Source: Chitinophagales bacterium
GTDB lineage: Bacteria > Bacteroidota > Bacteroidia > Chitinophagales > Saprospiraceae
Direction of reading: 5' to 3'
Assembly (NCBI GenBank): GCA_013299105.1
Contig: JAAFJY010000039.1
Location: 1 to 64,000 of the forward strand
Length of the DNA: 64,000 bases
Shown here one piece after another: positions 1-9,132 of this stretch (within the stretch, counting starts at the first letter, position 1; each line of letters begins with the position of its first letter). The position numbers and the translations under genes are program-made. A model generated the notes under the pieces. The model saw only the letters and a list, made by a program, of their open reading frames with translations. It had not been told where the DNA came from and did no database searches.

Positions 1-72
1 CAGCAACTGGCCTTGGGTGTCCAGATGAGGTGTGAATTGTACCACTTGTTGTTCGAGTTCTTTGAAGGTCAT
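1..72 (-). CDS. N-terminus of an unidentified protein, cut by the window edge
   Basis: A reverse-strand frame starts at an ATG (complement of 70-72) and stays open to the window edge, giving 24 residues that begin MTFKELEQQV. The polar, Glu/Gln-rich start has no signal peptide or transmembrane character, so a cytoplasmic protein is likely. It diverges from the bacteriocin-like peptide genes to its right. Too little is visible to assign a family, and the start could still be spurious. Confidence 0.45.
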   Translation of the reverse strand, partial: MTFKELEQQVVQFTPHLDTQGQLL

Positions 73-98
73 ATACAAACTTAATCAATTTTTCTTAA

Positions 99-215
99 AT
101 TGCAAAAACACCCCTGAATAGTTACAATCCAGTAACCGGAACACTTGCAGCTATGGGAAGTGGCTTTATAGTGGGATCATTGGCAGGCACGTGCGCTGGG
201 CTATTATCCATATAA
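99..215 (+). pseudogene. Leaderless remnant of a Gly-rich microcin-like peptide
   Basis: An open frame of 38 codons runs from just after the stop at 96-98 to the TAA at 213-215. Its C-terminal half is rich in Gly, Ala and small hydrophobics (it contains GSGFIVGSLAGTCAGLLSI) and holds one Cys, like a mature bacteriocin-type peptide. No ATG with a leader precedes it. The only in-frame ATG, at 153, would give a 20-residue peptide with no leader. It lies 25 bp upstream of an intact leader-bearing peptide gene of similar style. I read it as the 3' end of a paralogous peptide gene whose leader was lost. A very short real gene starting at 153 is the alternative. Confidence 0.4.
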
Positions 216-240
216 TTCTAACCTTTAAATTTAGTAAATC

Positions 241-435
241 ATGAAAAAAATGACTATTGAGCAACTTGAATCGACAAGTGGCGCTTCACGTATTAAGGAT
301 GTTTTAGTAGGAGCCTGCGCTGCAATGGCTGTCGGGCGACTCGCTGCTTATTATTTAGCGGTAACAGTTCCAATCTCAACACCAGTATTACTTACAATTG
401 GGGTAGGGTGTGCCGCAGTTGCATTCATGGATTAA
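241..435 (+). CDS. Double-glycine-type leader peptide (putative bacteriocin or secreted signal)
   Basis: This 64-residue protein starts MKKMTIEQLES and continues TSGAS. That matches the Bacteroidota version of the double-Gly leader (charged start, T-x-E-Q-L-E, then G-[G/A/S]), so cleavage is expected after Gly-Ala near residues 14-15. The predicted mature part of about 49 residues is hydrophobic, rich in Ala, Val and Gly, and has Cys in VGACAA and in GVGCAA near its two ends, which could form one disulfide. It lacks the many Ser/Thr/Cys residues of a lanthipeptide core. A perfect 12-bp hairpin follows the stop. A C39-peptidase ABC exporter and a membrane-anchored CxxC redoxin lie about 1 kb downstream and are the obvious processing partners. 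Whether the product kills, signals or only marks the surface cannot be told from the sequence. Confidence 0.7.
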   Translation: MKKMTIEQLESTSGASRIKDVLVGACAAMAVGRLAAYYLAVTVPISTPVLLTIGVGCAAVAFMD

Positions 436-446
436 TTGCTGACGTT

Positions 447-480
447 TTGCCCTGCAAAGATACGGTTTTTTGCAGGGCAA
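447..480 (+). terminator. Hairpin after the leader-peptide gene
   Basis: A perfect 12-bp inverted repeat (TTGCCCTGCAAA at 447-458, TTTGCAGGGCAA at 469-480) encloses a 10-base loop, 12 bp after the peptide stop codon. There is no long U-run after it, so it may terminate weakly or protect a short abundant mRNA from decay, as expected for a small-peptide transcript. Confidence 0.65.
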
Positions 481-489
481 ATATTTCGA

Positions 490-568
490 TAAACCATTTT
501 TGGTAGTCCTCTAAATGTAATGCTGAAAACAAAGGCTTTTCTTACAAAATAGCATTACGTTTGGTTTA
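490..568. repeat. Imperfect long inverted repeat
   Basis: Nested complementary pairs TAAACC (490-495)/GGTTTA (563-568) and GTAATGCT (517-524)/AGCATTAC (551-558) would fold this intergenic stretch into an imperfect hairpin between the leader-peptide gene and the next small membrane protein. Function unknown; a small palindromic repeat or mRNA structure is possible. Confidence 0.45.
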
Positions 569-612
569 CCATCTCATTTTTCATCCTTTTGGTAATTTAA
601 AATTCATGACCA

Positions 613-816
613 ATGGAAAAGTATAAGCGATTAGGCAAGATTGAGCTTTTATTCTTTGGCCTAGGTATTGGCTATTATTTCGGTGAAGAACAAAACAGCC
701 GCGAAGGCTATTTATATATATTTATTTTATTTGTTGTATTGGCGATTATTGGTTTTGTCATGGATAGACGAGATATAGCTTCCCATAATGAGGAATCGTC
801 TTTGCACAAAGATTAA
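613..816 (+). CDS. Small membrane protein, possible immunity or accessory protein
   Basis: A 67-residue protein with a short basic start (MEKYKRLGKI), two hydrophobic stretches (about residues 11-24 and 33-50) joined by a polar loop with EEQNSREG, and a charged C-terminus. It probably spans the inner membrane twice. I recognise no family. It sits between the leader-peptide gene and the redoxin/ABC-exporter pair on the same strand, the usual place and size for an immunity or accessory protein of a bacteriocin locus, but that role is inferred only from position. Confidence 0.55.
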   Translation: MEKYKRLGKIELLFFGLGIGYYFGEEQNSREGYLYIFILFVVLAIIGFVMDRRDIASHNEESSLHKD

Positions 817-844
817 TTCTCTTGTTTTTTTTAAACTAATTCGC

Positions 845-940
845 ATGAAACCACAATCCAAAACTCGGATCATTTTTTTTGTTTTTGCAATTCTAGGCTT
901 TTTAGCGGCCTTTTTTGGAGTTCGTTATCTTAATATGTAA
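845..940 (+). CDS. 31-residue single-pass membrane peptide
   Basis: The frame begins MKPQSKTRII and then becomes one hydrophobic helix of about 20 residues (FFVFAILGFLAAFFG) before a short polar tail ending at TAA 938-940. The pattern of a positively charged start, one helix and an aromatic edge suits a real single-pass membrane micropeptide. It lies 28 bp after the 67-residue membrane protein and upstream of the redoxin gene on the same strand. No homolog is known to me, and the coding status of so short a frame is uncertain. Confidence 0.4.
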   Translation: MKPQSKTRIIFFVFAILGFLAAFFGVRYLNM

Positions 941-1046
941 GTAACAGCTTCCGAAAAAGGTAAATCTTCTTGCAATCTATAATGAACTATATCGTACTTC
1001 GATGATATGGTAAAGTTTTTTATTTGGAAAGCTGAAGTTTTTTCAA

Positions 1047-1601
1047 ATGCAAACCATGTCCAAACTCAACCCACGCCCACTAATCCTGCTGCTTGCCGTC
1101 ACTCTAATCAGTGGCATAATCTTCACCCTACTGCGCAAGACCCTAACAGCCCAAGCGCAGCGCAGCAAAATCGAGGCCCAAAGCGCCCAAAGGCCCCCAA
1201 AACTGCCTTTCGCAGCTTTGGGCTCCTTTCAATATCCGCCCAATGATCAAGCCAGTGTGATTTTTTTCTTTCACCCGGAGTGCGAGCATTGCAGCTACGA
1301 GGCAGTAGCCATCCAAAAAGAGCTAACGGCCTTTGGCCAAGCCCAGCTCATTTGGATCAGTACAGCAGATACGGCCAGCGTACGGCAATTTGCCCAGGAT
1401 CAAAAACTCGCTGGCCTACCCAATGTGCATTGGATGAGCGATACAGCCCGGGTATTCGACCAGGTATTTGGGGCCAGCTCCGTGCCCTCGGTGTGGATCT
1501 ACAACGCGCAGGGCCAATTGACAAAACACTACAAAGGCGAAACTAAACCAGCGGCTTTGCTAAAATACTTGAACCATGACCCAACTAAAAACCGCCACTA
1601 A
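1047..1601 (+). CDS. Membrane-anchored thioredoxin-like protein (redoxin)
   Basis: 184 residues; translation may begin at M1 or at M4 (1056). A basic start precedes one N-terminal membrane helix (about residues 11-28). A thioredoxin-fold domain of the AhpC/TlpA type follows and should face the periplasm. Its active site is C79-E-H-C82 in PECEHCSY, and a cis-Pro region VPSVWIY lies near the C-terminus, both typical of the fold. The last 26 bp overlap the start of the ABC exporter gene, so the two are probably translated together. In peptide-export loci such proteins handle disulfides of the exported peptide or the exporter. The linked leader peptide has two Cys, which fits, but the direction of redox activity is not deducible. 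Confidence 0.8.
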   Translation: MQTMSKLNPRPLILLLAVTLISGIIFTLLRKTLTAQAQRSKIEAQSAQRPPKLPFAALGSFQYPPNDQASVIFFFHPECEHCSYEAVAIQKELTAFGQAQLIWISTADTASVRQFAQDQKLAGLPNVHWMSDTARVFDQVFGASSVPSVWIYNAQGQLTKHYKGETKPAALLKYLNHDPTKNRH

Positions 1602-3768
1602 GGCCCACCAGCGCCAGCACGACCAAAGCGATTGTGGGCCAGCCTGTCTGCTCAGTGCCCTGCGCTACCACGCTGCCAGTGTGCCACTTGAGCGCTTGCG
1701 CGAATGGAGTGGAACTTCCACCCAGGGCACCACACTATTGGGGCTTTTGCAGGCTGCCCGCCAAGTGGGTTTCGAGGCCGATGGTTACGAAGCCGACCTG
1801 CAGAGCCTGCAAGAATGCCCGGACTTGTGCATTCTGCATGTGGTAAAGGACCAGCATTTGCAGCATTTTATCCTCTGCTATGGCTACGATGCGCAGCGAG
1901 CGGCCTTTCTGGTCAGCGATCCTGCCGAACCACAATGCTCCTGGCTGACCAATGATGAATTGTTGGCCATTTGGCAAAGCAAAGCCCTGTTGCTGCTCAA
2001 GCCCAGCGAAAAACTACCCAAAGTCAGCAGTCAGCAACTCAATCAGCGCCGCTGGTTCTGGGAACTGGTGCGCGAGGATGTTCCCATTTTGGCAGTAGCG
2101 CTGGTCTTGGGGCTGCTCACTTCGATTTTGGGCTTGGCTTTGGCCCTGTTTTCACAACAGTTGGTGGACCAGATCATCCCCCAAGCTGAGGTCCAAAAGC
2201 TGTTTCTGGGTGGTGGCCTGTTGATGGCACTTTTATTGGCGAGGGCGGGCTTGGGTTATGTGCGCCAGGTGCTGTTGTTGCGCCAAAGCCAAGACATGAA
2301 CCTGCGCCTGGCCCACAATTTTTACGAGCGCTTGCTGCATTTGTCCAAACCCTTTTTTGACAACCGCAAAACGGGTGATCTCATCGCTCGCCTCAACGAT
2401 ACCCAACGCATCCAACGCACAGTAGCGGCCCTGGCAGGTGGCGCGTTGATCGATGTATTGAGCCTGCTGACGGCCCTGGGTTTTATGTTTTTTTACAGTT
2501 GGCAACTGGGGGTCGCAGGCTTGTTGTGGCTGCCTTTGTTTTTGGCCGTAGTCTGGCGTTTTCATCCCGCTATTTTGCAACAACAGCGGCAAACCATGAG
2601 TGCCTATGCCTTCACCGAGAGCCATTACATCGACAGCATCCAGGGGGTAGGGGCCATTAAAATTGGCAATCGACAAGCGGTGTTTGCCCGACTCACCCAG
2701 GGCATTTTCGGGGTATTTCAGCAGCGTTTGTATCAATTGGGCCTCACGGGCGCTCGCTTCGGGCTGGCGGCAGAGGCAATAGGTACTTTGTTTTTAGCCG
2801 GGGTCATTGCCTGGTCGGGCTGGCAAACCCTGCAAGGCCAGATGAGCACGGGCGGTCTGATCGCACTCTTGCAAATGGCGGCTACGCTGGTGGCTTCAGC
2901 GGCTCAACTTTCCTCGGCCAATCTGTTGTTGCAAGAAGCCCGCGTCGCCTTCGATCGCATGTACGAATTTGCAGCCCTCGAAACCGAGTATGAAATGGAA
3001 GCCGAAGCTCCCAAAGCTGCCATCCAAGCCTTCGAGGAGTTGCGGGTAGAAAATCTTGCCTTCCGTTTCCCAGGCCGCAAGCGCCTGTTGGAAGACCTTA
3101 GTTTTCAATTGCGCCGGGGCGAGTGGATCAGCATTTTGGGTGAAAGTGGCTGTGGAAAAAGCACCTTGCTGCAAATTCTGCAAAAATTTTACGCGGCTGA
3201 GTCTGGCCACATCAAAGTTAATGGCATCGATCTGACCCTACTCGGTTACGAAAACTGGCGGGCCAAACTAGGCGTAGTGCCCCAAAACATCAAGCTCTTC
3301 AACGGCACCCTACTCGATAACGTCCTGCTGGGCGAAGAAGTGAAGAACCCCGAAGCCCTGCAAGCCTTTTTTGAACATTACGGCTTCGATGCCTATTTTT
3401 CTCAATTCCCCAATGGCTATTTGACCTTGTTGGGCGAAGAAGGCGTGAACCTCTCCGGTGGTCAACAACAACTCGTGGCCCTGGCCCGCGCCCTGTACCG
3501 CCAACCAGAATTGCTATTGCTCGATGAGCCTACGGCGGCTTTGGACCGCGATACTGAGCAATTTGTGCTGCAATTGTTGGAGCAGCTCAAGTCACAAGTA
3601 GGCATCGTAGTATTGACCCACCGCCTGCGCACCGCTCGTGCTGCCGACCGCATGTACGTAATCGAGCAAGGTCGAATCGTAGCCAGTGGTCAACACGAGG
3701 GGCTTTTGCAGCAAGACAATTTGTACCGTCGGGCTTGGTATGATTTGGTTGGCGCGGAGATGGTTTAG
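1576..3768 (+). CDS. Peptidase-containing ABC transporter (C39 family, PCAT) for leader peptides
   Basis: 730 residues with the full bacteriocin-exporter layout. The N-terminal C39 cysteine-peptidase domain has catalytic Cys20 in QSDCGPACL, His97 in QHFIL and Asp115 in VSDPA. A six-helix transmembrane domain spans roughly residues 160-450. The C-terminal ATPase has Walker A GESGCGKST near 522-530, signature LSGGQQQ near 626 and Walker B LLLLDEP near 646. Such proteins cut double-Gly leaders and export the mature peptide across the inner membrane in one step. The substrate is most likely the peptide at 241-435. The gene overlaps the redoxin gene by 26 bp. No HlyD-type adaptor or TolC partner is visible in the window, so crossing of the outer membrane is unexplained. 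All catalytic residues are present, so it should be functional. Confidence 0.93.
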   Translation: MTQLKTATKAHQRQHDQSDCGPACLLSALRYHAASVPLERLREWSGTSTQGTTLLGLLQAARQVGFEADGYEADLQSLQECPDLCILHVVKDQHLQHFILCYGYDAQRAAFLVSDPAEPQCSWLTNDELLAIWQSKALLLLKPSEKLPKVSSQQLNQRRWFWELVREDVPILAVALVLGLLTSILGLALALFSQQLVDQIIPQAEVQKLFLGGGLLMALLLARAGLGYVRQVLLLRQSQDMNLRLAHNFYERLLHLSKPFFDNRKTGDLIARLNDTQRIQRTVAALAGGALIDVLSLLTALGFMFFYSWQLGVAGLLWLPLFLAVVWRFHPAILQQQRQTMSAYAFTESHYIDSIQGVGAIKIGNRQAVFARLTQGIFGVFQQRLYQLGLTGARFGLAAEAIGTLFLAGVIAWSGWQTLQGQMSTGGLIALLQMAATLVASAAQLSSANLLLQEARVAFDRMYEFAALETEYEMEAEAPKAAIQAFEELRVENLAFRFPGRKRLLEDLSFQLRRGEWISILGESGCGKSTLLQILQKFYAAESGHIKVNGIDLTLLGYENWRAKLGVVPQNIKLFNGTLLDNVLLGEEVKNPEALQAFFEHYGFDAYFSQFPNGYLTLLGEEGVNLSGGQQQLVALARALYRQPELLLLDEPTAALDRDTEQFVLQLLEQLKSQVGIVVLTHRLRTARAADRMYVIEQGRIVASGQHEGLLQQDNLYRRAWYDLVGAEMV

Positions 3769-3806
3769 AAGTTGATGGGTGAATATGAGAGGTAGATACA
3801 ATTTCC

Positions 3807-6800
3807 TCACCGCTTCCCCTTAATCACCCTAGGCACTTTCTCCTCACTGAGCATTTTCTCAAAGCGCTGCATGGCCTCACCCGCCGCTTTGTCATAGCGC
3901 GTGCTGATGCCTTCGTACACTTTTTTCAGATCGGCATAAGCTTCCAGCGCACCACCAGTGGGGCGGTTGTCGTCCCAGACCAGTACGCTATACACCCTGG
4001 CGATGTGGTTGATGAAGCGACGGGGGTAGTTGAAGTTGTCCTGCCCGGCTTCGGCCATGTTTTGCACAATTTCATCTTCTACTGCGGTCAGCGACTTGCC
4101 CAATTCCTCGGCCAGTTCCTGGATTTTTTTCGGAAAATTGGCTTTCACGGCCAGTTCTGCCGTTTCGTTGAATTGCTTTTTCAGGCTGCGCAGCTCGTCT
4201 ACTTTGCGTTGCGAATCGCTGATCAGCTCGCGCATTTCGAGGGCCAAGGCTTCCTGGGCCTGGTAATCTTCGGCTTTGACATGGGGCCAGCGTGGGTCGG
4301 GCAAAACCTGGAATGTTTGGCTTTGCACTTCTGATCCCAAGGTGACTTTCACGGTGTATGGTCCTGGTTTTACCTTGGGACCCATGATGGGTACGCCCAT
4401 TTCCATCAGCACCAACCTGGAAGCCGTGTAAGGGCCTTCGTGTTGTAAGTTCCAACTGAAACTGTTCCAACCGGGCTTGAGTTCCAATTTGTTGGCCGCT
4501 GGTTCGGCGTCTTTGCTGAAGGTGCGGATTACTTTGCCCGCAGCGTCCAGGATTTCCACTTTTGCAGCCTGGTCTTTGGCTGTGTCTTTGCCAATGTAGC
4601 AGTGGAAAGTTGGCAGGTAGCCATAGATATTGCTGCGGTAAGCGTCGCGGGGTTTGAACAATTGCAGTTTGGCTTTCAGGGTTTCGTTGCTCACTTGGTG
4701 CAAGGGACTGAGGTCGTCCAAGGCCCAAAAACCCCGGCCTTGGGTGCTCATCACTAGGTCTTTTTGCTGCACCTCCAGATCGGTGATGGGGGTATGGGGC
4801 AAGTTGAGTTGCAAAGCCTGCCAATGCGCCCCATCGTCGAAAGAAACGTACATGCCATATTCGGTGCCCGCATACAACAAGCCCTTGCGATTGGGGTCTT
4901 CGACTACAGCCCGTATAAAGTGGTTCTCTGGAATGCCATTGTTGCCAGTGCTCAACAAAGTCCAGGTTTGGCCAAAGTCGGTAGTGCGCAAAACGTAGGG
5001 TTTAAAATCGTTGTTGCGGTAGTTCTGCACGGCTACAAAAGCCCGGCCTGCCGCGTGGCTCGACAAGTGGATTTTGTTGATGGTGCATTCAAAAGGGATG
5101 TTTTTGGGCGTGATTTCTTTCCAATTGGCACCGCCGTCGTTGCTGATGTGCATGCGGCCGTCGTCGCTGCCTACCCAAAGTTCTCCTGCTTTGAAGGGCG
5201 ATTCTTCGATCACAAAAACAGTGCTGTAAACCTCCACTCCGGTCGCGTCGTGCTGGATGGGGCCGCCTGGCATGATCAGGTATTGGTCGAGCTTGCGGGT
5301 CAGGTCGGGGCTGATGATGTCCCAACTTTGGCCATTGTTGCGGCTGCGGTGCACGAAGTTGGAGCAGTAATATATGGTATTGGGGTCAAAACGTGAGACC
5401 AAGACCGGGGCATTCCACTGGAAACGGTACTTCAGGTCGCGCATGACCGTGCCCTCGGTGAAGTGTGGATAAGCAGTCACCTGGCGGTTTTCGCCCGTAG
5501 CGCGGTTGACATAAGTGATTTCGCCACTGTAAGCGGTGGCCCAAATGATGTTGGGGTCTTGGGGATTTACGGCCACATCGGCGCATTCGCTGCCACCTAC
5601 GTCGAACCAGTTTTGGCCATCGGTCAATCCACCCGGATCGTGGATGGGCACGCTGATGGTGGTATTGTCTTGTTGGCCTGCATACAAGCGATAAGGAAAT
5701 TGCTTATCCACCGTTACGCGATAAAACTCGGAGGTGGGCTGATTGAGTTGGGTGCTCCAGGTTTTACCGCCGTTTAAACTTACACAAGCCCCGCCGTCGT
5801 TGCAATTGATCATGATGTTGGGATTGTCGGGGTTGAGCCACACGCCGTGTGTATCCCCATGAGGCACGGGGAATTCGTGGTCAAAGTTTTTGCCCCCGTC
5901 AATGGATTTCATAAAATCGACATTGCAGAGGTAAACCGTGTTTTCACTTTTCGGGTCCGCGCTGAGGTGGCTGTAGTACCAACCGCGTTGTTGCAAGCGG
6001 TGGTCGCGGTTGATGCGCGACCAATTTTCACCCGCGTCTTCGCTCAGGTACAGGCCCGAAGTAGCGTCGTCGGGGGTGATGATGATGGCCCAAATTTTTT
6101 GAGGATTGACCGGAGATACCGCCAGGCCAATTTTGCCGAGTAAACCCGTAGGCAAGCCGCCTTTGAGTTGGTCCCAAGTGCTGCCGCCATCGGTCGATTT
6201 CCAAATTCCACCCTTGTTGCCGCCGTCAAACAAGGTCCAGGGCTTGCGCTCGGTCCGCCACATGGCGGCGTAGAGGATACGCGGATTGGAGGGGTCCATG
6301 ACCAAATCGACACAACCTGTGGAGTCGCCCGCCGTCAATACAGGGTCCCATTTTTTGCCGCCATCCAGGGTGCGGAATACACCACGCTCTTTGTGTGGCC
6401 CGAATGGGTTGCCCAAGGCCGCTGCAAAAGCGATGTCGGGATTTTGGGGGTGCACTTCAATTTTGCCGATCATGCCCGATTTCTCCAGGCCAACATGTTT
6501 CCAAGTTTTGCCTTTGTCGCTGGACTTGTACATCCCGATTCCTGCCGAAATATTGCCGCGAGGCGCAGCCGAACCCGTGCCCACATAAATCACCGAGGGG
6601 TCGGAAGGCGCTACTGCAATGGCCCCGATGGAGCCGCACTTGATTTGGCCGTCGCTGACGTTTTGCCAGGTAGTGCCTGCGTCGTTGCTGCGCCAAACGC
6701 CGCCGCCCGTTGCGCCAAAATAAAAGGTGAAAGACTCTTGCCGCACGCCACAGATGGCCGTAGCCCGCCCACCCCGGCTGGGGCCAACCTGGCGGTACTG

Positions 6801-6908
6801 CATTTTTTCCAACAAAACCGGGTCGATGACCTGGTTGGGGTCTTTGGCGCTTTGTGCGCTGGCGAAAATTGAAGCAAAGCAAAGTAGGAGTAGAATCAAA
6901 TGACGCAT
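3807..6908 (-). CDS. Secreted multi-BNR (Asp-box) beta-propeller protein, sortilin/xyloglucanase-like
   Basis: About 1033 residues from the ATG at 6908, giving a clean signal peptide (MRHLILLLLCFASIFASA). A farther upstream start at 6974 was rejected because it lies in the atpC terminator. At least ten Asp-box motifs (S-x-D-x-G-x-T-W style, such as STDGGSTW, SNDGGANW) spread over the first ~750 residues indicate one or two large beta-propellers of the VPS10/sortilin or GH74-like type. A beta-sandwich-like segment and a helical C-terminus of about 150 residues follow. Many Bacteroidota annotate these as glycosyl hydrolases. No catalytic pair was identified here and the ligand is unknown. There is no T9SS sorting domain. 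It is the only gene on its strand before the ATP synthase pair and is separated from that pair by a terminator. Confidence 0.85.
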   Translation of the reverse strand: MRHLILLLLCFASIFASAQSAKDPNQVIDPVLLEKMQYRQVGPSRGGRATAICGVRQESFTFYFGATGGGVWRSNDAGTTWQNVSDGQIKCGSIGAIAVAPSDPSVIYVGTGSAAPRGNISAGIGMYKSSDKGKTWKHVGLEKSGMIGKIEVHPQNPDIAFAAALGNPFGPHKERGVFRTLDGGKKWDPVLTAGDSTGCVDLVMDPSNPRILYAAMWRTERKPWTLFDGGNKGGIWKSTDGGSTWDQLKGGLPTGLLGKIGLAVSPVNPQKIWAIIITPDDATSGLYLSEDAGENWSRINRDHRLQQRGWYYSHLSADPKSENTVYLCNVDFMKSIDGGKNFDHEFPVPHGDTHGVWLNPDNPNIMINCNDGGACVSLNGGKTWSTQLNQPTSEFYRVTVDKQFPYRLYAGQQDNTTISVPIHDPGGLTDGQNWFDVGGSECADVAVNPQDPNIIWATAYSGEITYVNRATGENRQVTAYPHFTEGTVMRDLKYRFQWNAPVLVSRFDPNTIYYCSNFVHRSRNNGQSWDIISPDLTRKLDQYLIMPGGPIQHDATGVEVYSTVFVIEESPFKAGELWVGSDDGRMHISNDGGANWKEITPKNIPFECTINKIHLSSHAAGRAFVAVQNYRNNDFKPYVLRTTDFGQTWTLLSTGNNGIPENHFIRAVVEDPNRKGLLYAGTEYGMYVSFDDGAHWQALQLNLPHTPITDLEVQQKDLVMSTQGRGFWALDDLSPLHQVSNETLKAKLQLFKPRDAYRSNIYGYLPTFHCYIGKDTAKDQAAKVEILDAAGKVIRTFSKDAEPAANKLELKPGWNSFSWNLQHEGPYTASRLVLMEMGVPIMGPKVKPGPYTVKVTLGSEVQSQTFQVLPDPRWPHVKAEDYQAQEALALEMRELISDSQRKVDELRSLKKQFNETAELAVKANFPKKIQELAEELGKSLTAVEDEIVQNMAEAGQDNFNYPRRFINHIARVYSVLVWDDNRPTGGALEAYADLKKVYEGISTRYDKAAGEAMQRFEKMLSEEKVPRVIKGKR

Positions 6909-6938
6909 GGCTTGGGCGGATTTGGCGGAAAGATACGC

Positions 6939-6981
6939 ATGAAAAAACAAACGCCAAGCCGGAGTATTCTCCAACTTGGCG
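6939..6981 (-). terminator. Rho-independent terminator of atpD-atpC
   Basis: Read on the minus strand, CGCCAAG (complement of 6975-6981) pairs with CTTGGCG (complement of 6952-6958), with an inner GGAG/CTCC pairing, and a T-rich tract follows (complement of 6939-6951). It lies about 40 bp beyond the atpC stop and upstream of the BNR gene start. Confidence 0.75.
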
Positions 6982-7021
6982 CGTGTTTTGAGTATGAGCT
7001 AGTTACGCTGGGTAAGCTGGG

Positions 7022-7330
7022 TTAAACTTCCTTTACCCCAGAAACCAACAGCGAAACTTCATTTTGCAGTACTTCCACAAAGCCACCTGCTACCTGAAAA
7101 GAGATGCGTTGACCAGTTTTTTGGTCGCGGACACTTTCTTTTTTGGCCAGGTCGTAGTAGCGGTATTCTCCAGCGGCAGTGACGATGGTCACTTTGCCTG
7201 CGTTGAGGGCCGAAACCAGCGGCGCGTGGTTTTTCAGGATCTGAAATTCACCATTGACACCAGGAACCTTAACCGATTCGATGGTGCCGGAAAAAATCTC
7301 GCGATCTGGAGTTAAAACGGTGATGTTCAT
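7022..7330 (-). CDS. atpC: F1F0 ATP synthase epsilon subunit
   Basis: About 102 residues from the ATG at 7330, which places the conserved start MNITVLTPDREIF at the N-terminus. An upstream codon at 7351 would add seven unconserved residues. The protein is the N-terminal beta-sandwich of epsilon (GEFQILKNHAPLVSAL), followed by a short C-terminus (EVLQNEVSLLVSG) that largely lacks the long two-helix domain. This short form is common in Bacteroidota. It is a central-stalk subunit that couples rotation to catalysis. It follows atpD with a gap of 27 bp; the remaining ATP synthase genes are elsewhere, as usual in the phylum. Confidence 0.95.
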   Translation of the reverse strand: MNITVLTPDREIFSGTIESVKVPGVNGEFQILKNHAPLVSALNAGKVTIVTAAGEYRYYDLAKKESVRDQKTGQRISFQVAGGFVEVLQNEVSLLVSGVKEV

Positions 7331-7357
7331 AAAACCGACAACTTTTGACAACCTGAA

Positions 7358-8884
<1,527 letters not shown>

Positions 8885-8921
8885 TTAGAAAGATTAGTGT
8901 CTTGATTCCGAAAAATCGCTG

Positions 8922-8952
8922 CAAATGTAGCGCTTTGCCTTGATAATCAAAA
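8922..8952 (-). promoter_or_regulatory. Bacteroidota-type promoter of atpD-atpC
   Basis: On the minus strand a TTTTG box (complement of 8948-8952) is followed after 18 bp by TACATTTG (complement of 8922-8929). This fits the phylum's -33 TTTG / -7 TAnnTTTG consensus with proper spacing and lies directly upstream of atpD. Confidence 0.75.
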
Positions 8953-9132
8953 GAAAAATTAAATGAGAAATCGAGGAAAAGAGATTCTTGGTAGTAAAAA
9001 GCGAACATAGCCCGATCTTTTTTGTTGCCTTTGCTGCTTTTGACAATATTATTCCCCAGGCTAGCAGCCGCTGCAAATATAATTTTGTAGCTTGGCTGGC
9101 CTTGAATCATTCCATTTTTTCAAGCCATTTAC

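Follow-up and report, generated by a model that had tools for sequence, protein, structure and literature searches.

A probable bacteroidetocin-type bacteriocin locus at the start of a Saprospiraceae contig

Do a leader peptide, a membrane-anchored redoxin and a C39 peptidase exporter that lie side by side at the start of a contig form one system, and if so, what would that system make? The contig is C33 (JAAFJY010000039.1; 73,609 bases) of Chitinophagales bacterium GCA_013299105.1, a member of the Saprospiraceae with a genome of 7,665,608 bases in 77 contigs, and the window that we analyzed is its bases 1–64000. Open reading frame (ORF) reading and Pfam searches recovered the peptide, redoxin and exporter genes on the plus strand where the original prediction had placed them, including the overlap of the last two. 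These three genes are one conserved system: in the clade to which the exporter belongs, a redoxin accompanies it at 33 of 38 loci, versus 0 of 32 loci of other C39 exporters. Judged from sequence, a disulfide-bearing bacteriocin, one of the options named by the original prediction, is the best reading of the locus, and it is probably of the bacteroidetocin type, in a divergent and possibly partly decayed form.

Bacteroidetocins, known from gut Bacteroides, were shown to be toxins there in 2019 by Coyne et al. (PMC6671954). According to that study, their loci hold a five-transmembrane (TM) protein, a peptide with a double-glycine (GG) leader of 15–16 amino acids (aa), a thiol oxidoreductase and a C39-ABC exporter. 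Loss of the gene for the TM protein, the peptide or the oxidoreductase reduced activity, each being needed for its full level, and the four genes sufficed for toxin in E. coli. The study also lists 19 peptides from a search that drew on 35 genomes of four Bacteroidetes classes, proposes class IIf, does not rule out release by lysis, and states that no immunity protein was found. A later paper names BamA as the target (PMC8546649). PMC6671954 is the sole paper we found that joins thiol oxidoreductases and bacteriocins in Bacteroidetes, and none of 18 papers on Saprospiraceae and bacteriocins dealt, by title or start of abstract, with such a system. The description of a little-studied system of Saprospiria is not supported: the architecture has been known since 2019 (PMC6671954) and extends to many families of the phylum.

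The exporter clade and its companion genes

Exporters were searched for in 100 genomes of the family, 396 of the order, 395 of the class and 395 of the phylum (overlapping sets), and a group at ~37–57% identity to the window exporter stands apart. Within the order, an exporter of this clade occurs in 13 of 396 genomes, its own included (E ≤ 1e-95). Set A consists of 38 clade loci, namely the window, 36 genome loci (one of them on contig C76 of the same genome) and one Flammeovirga plasmid locus; L143 (35%) and L156 (31%) are less alike members. Set B consists of 32 loci whose exporters reach at most 33% identity, 12 from the first lists and 20 from the order list (part of those listed). Set A loci supplied the profiles of the redoxin and a ~185–250-aa membrane protein, and set B loci that of HlyD. 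By these profiles, and with loci counted regardless of relatedness, set A (window included) has the membrane protein at 35 of 38 loci, the redoxin at 33 and HlyD at none, whereas set B has HlyD at all 32 (as a contig-end fragment in L047) and neither of the other two anywhere. Both proteins are also found at all 14 of the set A loci L143–L156, which were not used in building the profiles. The set A counts include two proteins that are each in two pieces, namely the membrane protein of L092 and the redoxin of L146; the membrane protein is absent in the window, L097 (a 3.1-kb contig) and L115, and the redoxin in L041, L097, L109, L111 and L115. In a quick maximum-likelihood tree of the 64 unbroken exporters, which leaves out six broken ones (L007, L097, L110, L111, L116 and L155), a single branch splits set A from set B (Shimodaira–Hasegawa-like approximate likelihood-ratio test, SH-aLRT, 99), and the window falls beside loci of genomes G174 and G290.

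The exporters themselves are alike in their catalytic residues. That of the window matches Peptidase_C39 (4.3e-27), ABC_membrane (3.5e-32) and ABC_tran (2.6e-32) and keeps Cys20, His97 and Asp115 together with the ABC motifs. Across the unbroken clade exporters, the Cys column is kept in 31 of 32 (one gap) and the His and Asp columns in all 32, as are the same columns in 32 of 32 HlyD-type exporters. The original prediction was right that no HlyD-like partner is visible at the locus, an absence that is usual for the clade. HlyD is encoded elsewhere in the genome, beside the C39 exporters of L005 and L006; a scan of the genome with the window exporter also gave two distant ABC matches.

Plasmids repeat the two arrangements. 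That of Flammeovirga pectinis carries the membrane protein, redoxin and exporter followed by a 51-aa GG-leader peptide, and that of F. kamogawensis the membrane protein, a 49-aa leader peptide with two Cys, the redoxin and the exporter; both fit set A. The 15-kb plasmid pAT7 of Aureibacter tunicatorum (L200) has TolC, HlyD and a C39 exporter in a row and fits the HlyD type. L192 shows the published bacteroidetocin gene order with a four-Cys peptide, and its membrane protein and redoxin match our profiles at 3.1e-21 and 1.6e-20; a plasmid search with its exporter returned no Bacteroides or Prevotella among the best 20 of 273 records or the ten organism names listed.

Peptides, redoxin and small membrane proteins

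A mechanical leader scan, not cleaned by hand and with false or mis-started ORFs on both sides, returned 48 ORFs in set A and 38 in set B, and five on the antisense strand of the set A loci. Leaders of set A measure 15 aa in 40 of 48 cases, with a consensus of about MKKLSLNQMExLEGG. Cores with at least two Cys make up 43 of 48 in set A and 10 of 38 in set B (Fisher 1.4e-9, relatedness ignored) or, per locus, 24 of 29 versus 2 of 18. No Cys at all is present in 23 of the 38 set B cores, and the ten with at least two are from L006 (probably not a gene), L045, L047, L119, L126, L131 and L135. Nine clade loci (L007, L096, L097, L115, L146, L150, L151, L152 and L155) were without a hit in the scan; in L007, L096 and L152 a leader peptide was seen by eye.

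The window peptide has a 15-aa leader, MKKMTIEQLESTSGA, which fits the consensus of its relatives and the 15–16 aa of bacteroidetocins, and ends in GA rather than GG. Its core is very hydrophobic (grand average of hydropathicity 1.32) and, in line with bacteroidetocin cores, which have at least two Cys, carries two that lie far apart (residues 11 and 42 of the core, or 26 and 57 of the precursor). Among 11 peptides compared, the core aligned best with peptide 2 of L145 (z 6.2, 0 of 500 shuffles as good), followed by L087 peptide 2 (z 3.4), L144 (3.1) and L087 peptide 1 (3.0). Because the leader fits the consensus and the core matches one relative, the peptide ORF is more than chance. The original prediction had staked itself on homologues of the leader peptide beside C39 exporters in relatives, and these are present. 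Two-Cys hydrophobic cores with Cys 27–44 residues apart also occur in L086, L087, L088, L110, L144 and L145; since the alignments are uneven across the 11 peptides, this group looks like a common shape rather than one clear sequence family. A single-sequence fold of the peptide predicts helices at 6–40 and 47–63 with low confidence (predicted local distance difference test score 69.5).

Upstream of the peptide lies a leaderless stretch that the original prediction overlooked. It aligns with L087 peptide 1 (z 5.8, 0 of 500 shuffles as good; z −0.8 to 2.6 for the other ten), and since L087 holds both peptides in the same order, the window probably once held a peptide pair. Other clade loci carry further arrangements. 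For example, L041:4680-6206 (genome G024, contig C177) has five near-identical GG-leader peptides of 62–65 aa with six core Cys in tandem ahead of a clade exporter, with no redoxin in the stretch. A subgroup of peptides with cores that start KFWG and hold four Cys is found in L092, L109, L111 and L192, accompanied in the first three by a secreted-looking protein of ~300 aa.

The redoxin of the window (Pfam AhpC-TSA, 4.5e-8) has its CxxC at C79 and C82, both invariant in 19 of 19 aligned redoxins, and in 12 of the 19 a His precedes the second Cys of the CxxC. Its CEHC resembles the CPHC motif of DsbA and would suit an oxidant.

Two tiny membrane proteins had been proposed between peptide and redoxin, of which the first, of 67 aa, stands as a plausible small membrane protein. 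The second is weak, given its 29-nt overlap with the first and an alternative start. Neither the peptide nor the small ORFs gave anything over the cut-off in Pfam or NCBIfam, and the 67-aa ORF found no homologue among 35 small ORFs compared. Near the clade loci, 35 small hydrophobic ORFs were counted (some of them peptides or chance), with two clearly related pairs across loci (L091/L093 and L087/L090). Searching by pattern placed a separate short ABC ATPase at 8 of 38 set A loci and 0 of 32 set B loci, and overlooked at least two (L146 and L151, each seen by eye). Small membrane proteins and short ABC ATPases are candidates, and candidates only, for immunity.

Table 1. Features at the start of the window
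Feature	Position	Strand	Basis
Start of an open frame, 24 aa, running off the contig start; upstream neighbour of undefined kind	1..72	−	Six-frame reading
Leaderless remnant of a first peptide core; no start codon, end ...NPVTGTLAAMGSGFIVGSLAGTCAGLLSI	99..215	+	Reading and alignment
64-aa precursor: leader 241–285 (15 aa, ends Gly-Ala), core 286–432 (49 aa)	241..435	+	
67-aa hydrophobic ORF, candidate immunity protein	613..816	+	Function inferred
Doubtful hydrophobic ORF, 50 aa (or 31 aa from 845)	788..940	+	
Redoxin, N-terminal hydrophobic anchor, CEHC at residues 79–82	1047..1601	+	Pfam AhpC-TSA
Peptidase-containing ABC exporter: C39 domain, membrane domain, ATPase	1576..3768	+	Pfam, motifs, tree

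The exporter ATG sits 26 nt within the redoxin gene. Segments with the peptide and the small ORFs have a G+C content of 31–45%, and the redoxin and exporter 52–55%. In Haliscomenobacter hydrossis, the gene that follows the exporter has a counterpart that is 72% alike, in another context that lacks the locus.

In the window locus, as at bacteroidetocin loci, a 15-aa leader and at least two Cys go together with a thiol oxidoreductase and a C39-ABC exporter; its relatives share the membrane protein as well, and no HlyD partner is named for the published systems. It differs from them in the GA end of the leader, the candidate immunity ORF, the peptide remnant and the lack, in cis, of a gene for the membrane protein. 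By analogy, it would work as bacteroidetocin systems do; we stop short of claiming strict membership, since that gene is absent from the locus and the likeness to the proteins of bacteroidetocins A and B is one of description. Pediocin PA-1 and other class IIa systems likewise combine a leader peptide, a C39-ABC exporter and a potency-raising thiol-disulfide protein, PedC in the case of pediocin (PMC4919988 and PMC5465099). Those systems are Gram-positive and have no membrane-protein family of the kind found in this clade, and neither their YGNGV motif nor the longer YGNGVXC near the core N-terminus (the former as quoted in PMC6671954) occurs in the window core. The HlyD-paired exporters of set B have the same architecture and leader peptides nearby, but they lie on the opposite side of the exporter tree, with HlyD in place of the redoxin and membrane protein.

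The missing membrane-protein gene and the rival explanations

The usual fourth component of such loci was missing from the window and so could not be noticed in the original prediction. A whole-genome profile search found the membrane-protein gene at C76 alone (L007:7511-9687), a second locus of the clade with its own redoxin and a four-Cys GG peptide, and with an exporter split into two frames. Genome G463 offers a parallel, with the exporter alone at L115 and the membrane protein on another contig (L180). As window base 1 is the start of the contig, the absence of partners upstream says little, and the gene may act in trans from C76, lie beyond the contig end or have been lost.

For the family itself, Pfam yielded no match of 0.049 or lower in 20 members, and a PDB search up to E 1 was likewise empty; one member (L096) matched NCBIfam YknW at 5.9e-5, with 22.7 bits versus a cut-off of 110, which is a lead only. 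Across the class, it has 23 matches in 20 of 395 genomes, 14 of them with a redoxin gene, a C39-type gene or both alongside (L187 judged by eye) and nine without. Eight of these nine belong to family f36 (L181–L184 and L188–L191) and lie beside other conserved genes, in several cases the same ones, with no exporter or redoxin adjoining; they are likely a paralogue with another role. The membrane-protein family is therefore not specific to such loci. In family f61, L185, L186 and L187 combine a member of it with a GG-leader two-Cys peptide and a 453–454-aa protein that starts like a C39 exporter and looks too short to include the ATPase.

Several observations weigh against a bacteroidetocin-type locus. 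The comparison of the two sets and its Fisher values ignore relatedness. The membrane-protein gene had no match in the scanned stretch of the window, and the minus-strand frame from base 72 leaves no space for it directly upstream. The leader ends in GA, as opposed to GG in 38 of 40 clade leaders of 15 aa in the scan; the core scores z below 1 against L088, L145 peptide 1 and both L112 peptides; and bacteroidetocins A and B, likened here by description, have four Cys versus the two of this very hydrophobic core. The best PDB matches of the redoxin include ResA-type proteins, so the direction of the thiol reaction, oxidation or not, is not fixed. Moreover, L041, L109 and L111 have Cys-rich peptides without a match to the redoxin profile, so that a different oxidant can take its place or none is required, and the redoxin is not always needed.

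One rival explanation is a decayed relic, in which a full two-peptide system lost its membrane-protein gene and the leader of its first peptide and makes no product. The leaderless remnant, the lack of the membrane-protein gene in cis and the split exporter at C76 point that way, but the second peptide, the redoxin and the exporter have open frames with complete motifs, the missing part falls at the contig start and a membrane-protein gene exists at C76; we regard such a relic as unlikely. An exported disulfide peptide could instead be a pheromone, given that Gram-positive bacteria use C39 exporters for signals too (PMC6363468) and that no killing has so far been shown for this subfamily. Against that stand the varied-core peptide arrays of relatives (six in L108, five in L041), the separate short ABC ATPases found at 8 of the 38 set A loci and the toxicity of the closest tested systems (PMC6671954), and no receptor or regulator gene was seen, by eye only, among the ORFs of bases 1–9000; a signalling role thus seems quite improbable. 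A chance grouping, in which an ordinary C39 exporter lies next to a redoxin of no relation and to random small ORFs, can draw on the abundance of short ORFs (99 of at least 30 aa overlap bases 1–9000) and on the HlyD genes that adjoin two further C39 exporters of the genome, but it is scarcely credible in view of the redoxin linkage, the leader and core matches and the excess of sense over antisense leaders.

Proposed mode of action and meaning

In the bacteroidetocin-type reading, the C39 domain would recognize the 15-aa leader and cut after Gly14-Ala15, and the ABC exporter would carry the 49-aa core over the inner membrane, as its family suggests. The anchored CEHC redoxin in the periplasm may then join Cys26 to Cys57 and close a hydrophobic helical hairpin. 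The product would leave the cell without a dedicated HlyD/TolC partner, via a host route or lysis, and attack related Bacteroidota, with the 67-aa membrane protein possibly shielding the producer. With its usual membrane-protein gene and the front of the first peptide missing, the window copy would be helped in trans by the C76 copy, cut by the contig edge, or partly decayed. More tentatively, and on balance somewhat doubtfully, we can imagine a second, phylum-wide, class IIf-like branch, in which paired, very hydrophobic peptides, their ends joined by one disulfide, insert into membranes as hairpins and act as two-peptide bacteriocins. Small membrane proteins would provide dedicated immunity, and the exporter, redoxin and membrane protein would make the peptides without HlyD.

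A locus first read blind is here tied to a tested toxin system. The comparison suggests that the C39 exporters of Bacteroidota are of two classes, one HlyD-paired with mostly Cys-free peptides and one redoxin-paired with Cys-bearing peptides, a testable rule that would help in finding unannotated bacteriocins. For immunity, which was not found in bacteroidetocins, the small membrane proteins and short ABC ATPases offer candidates that can be tested, and the HlyD-free clade bears on how such peptides cross the outer membrane.

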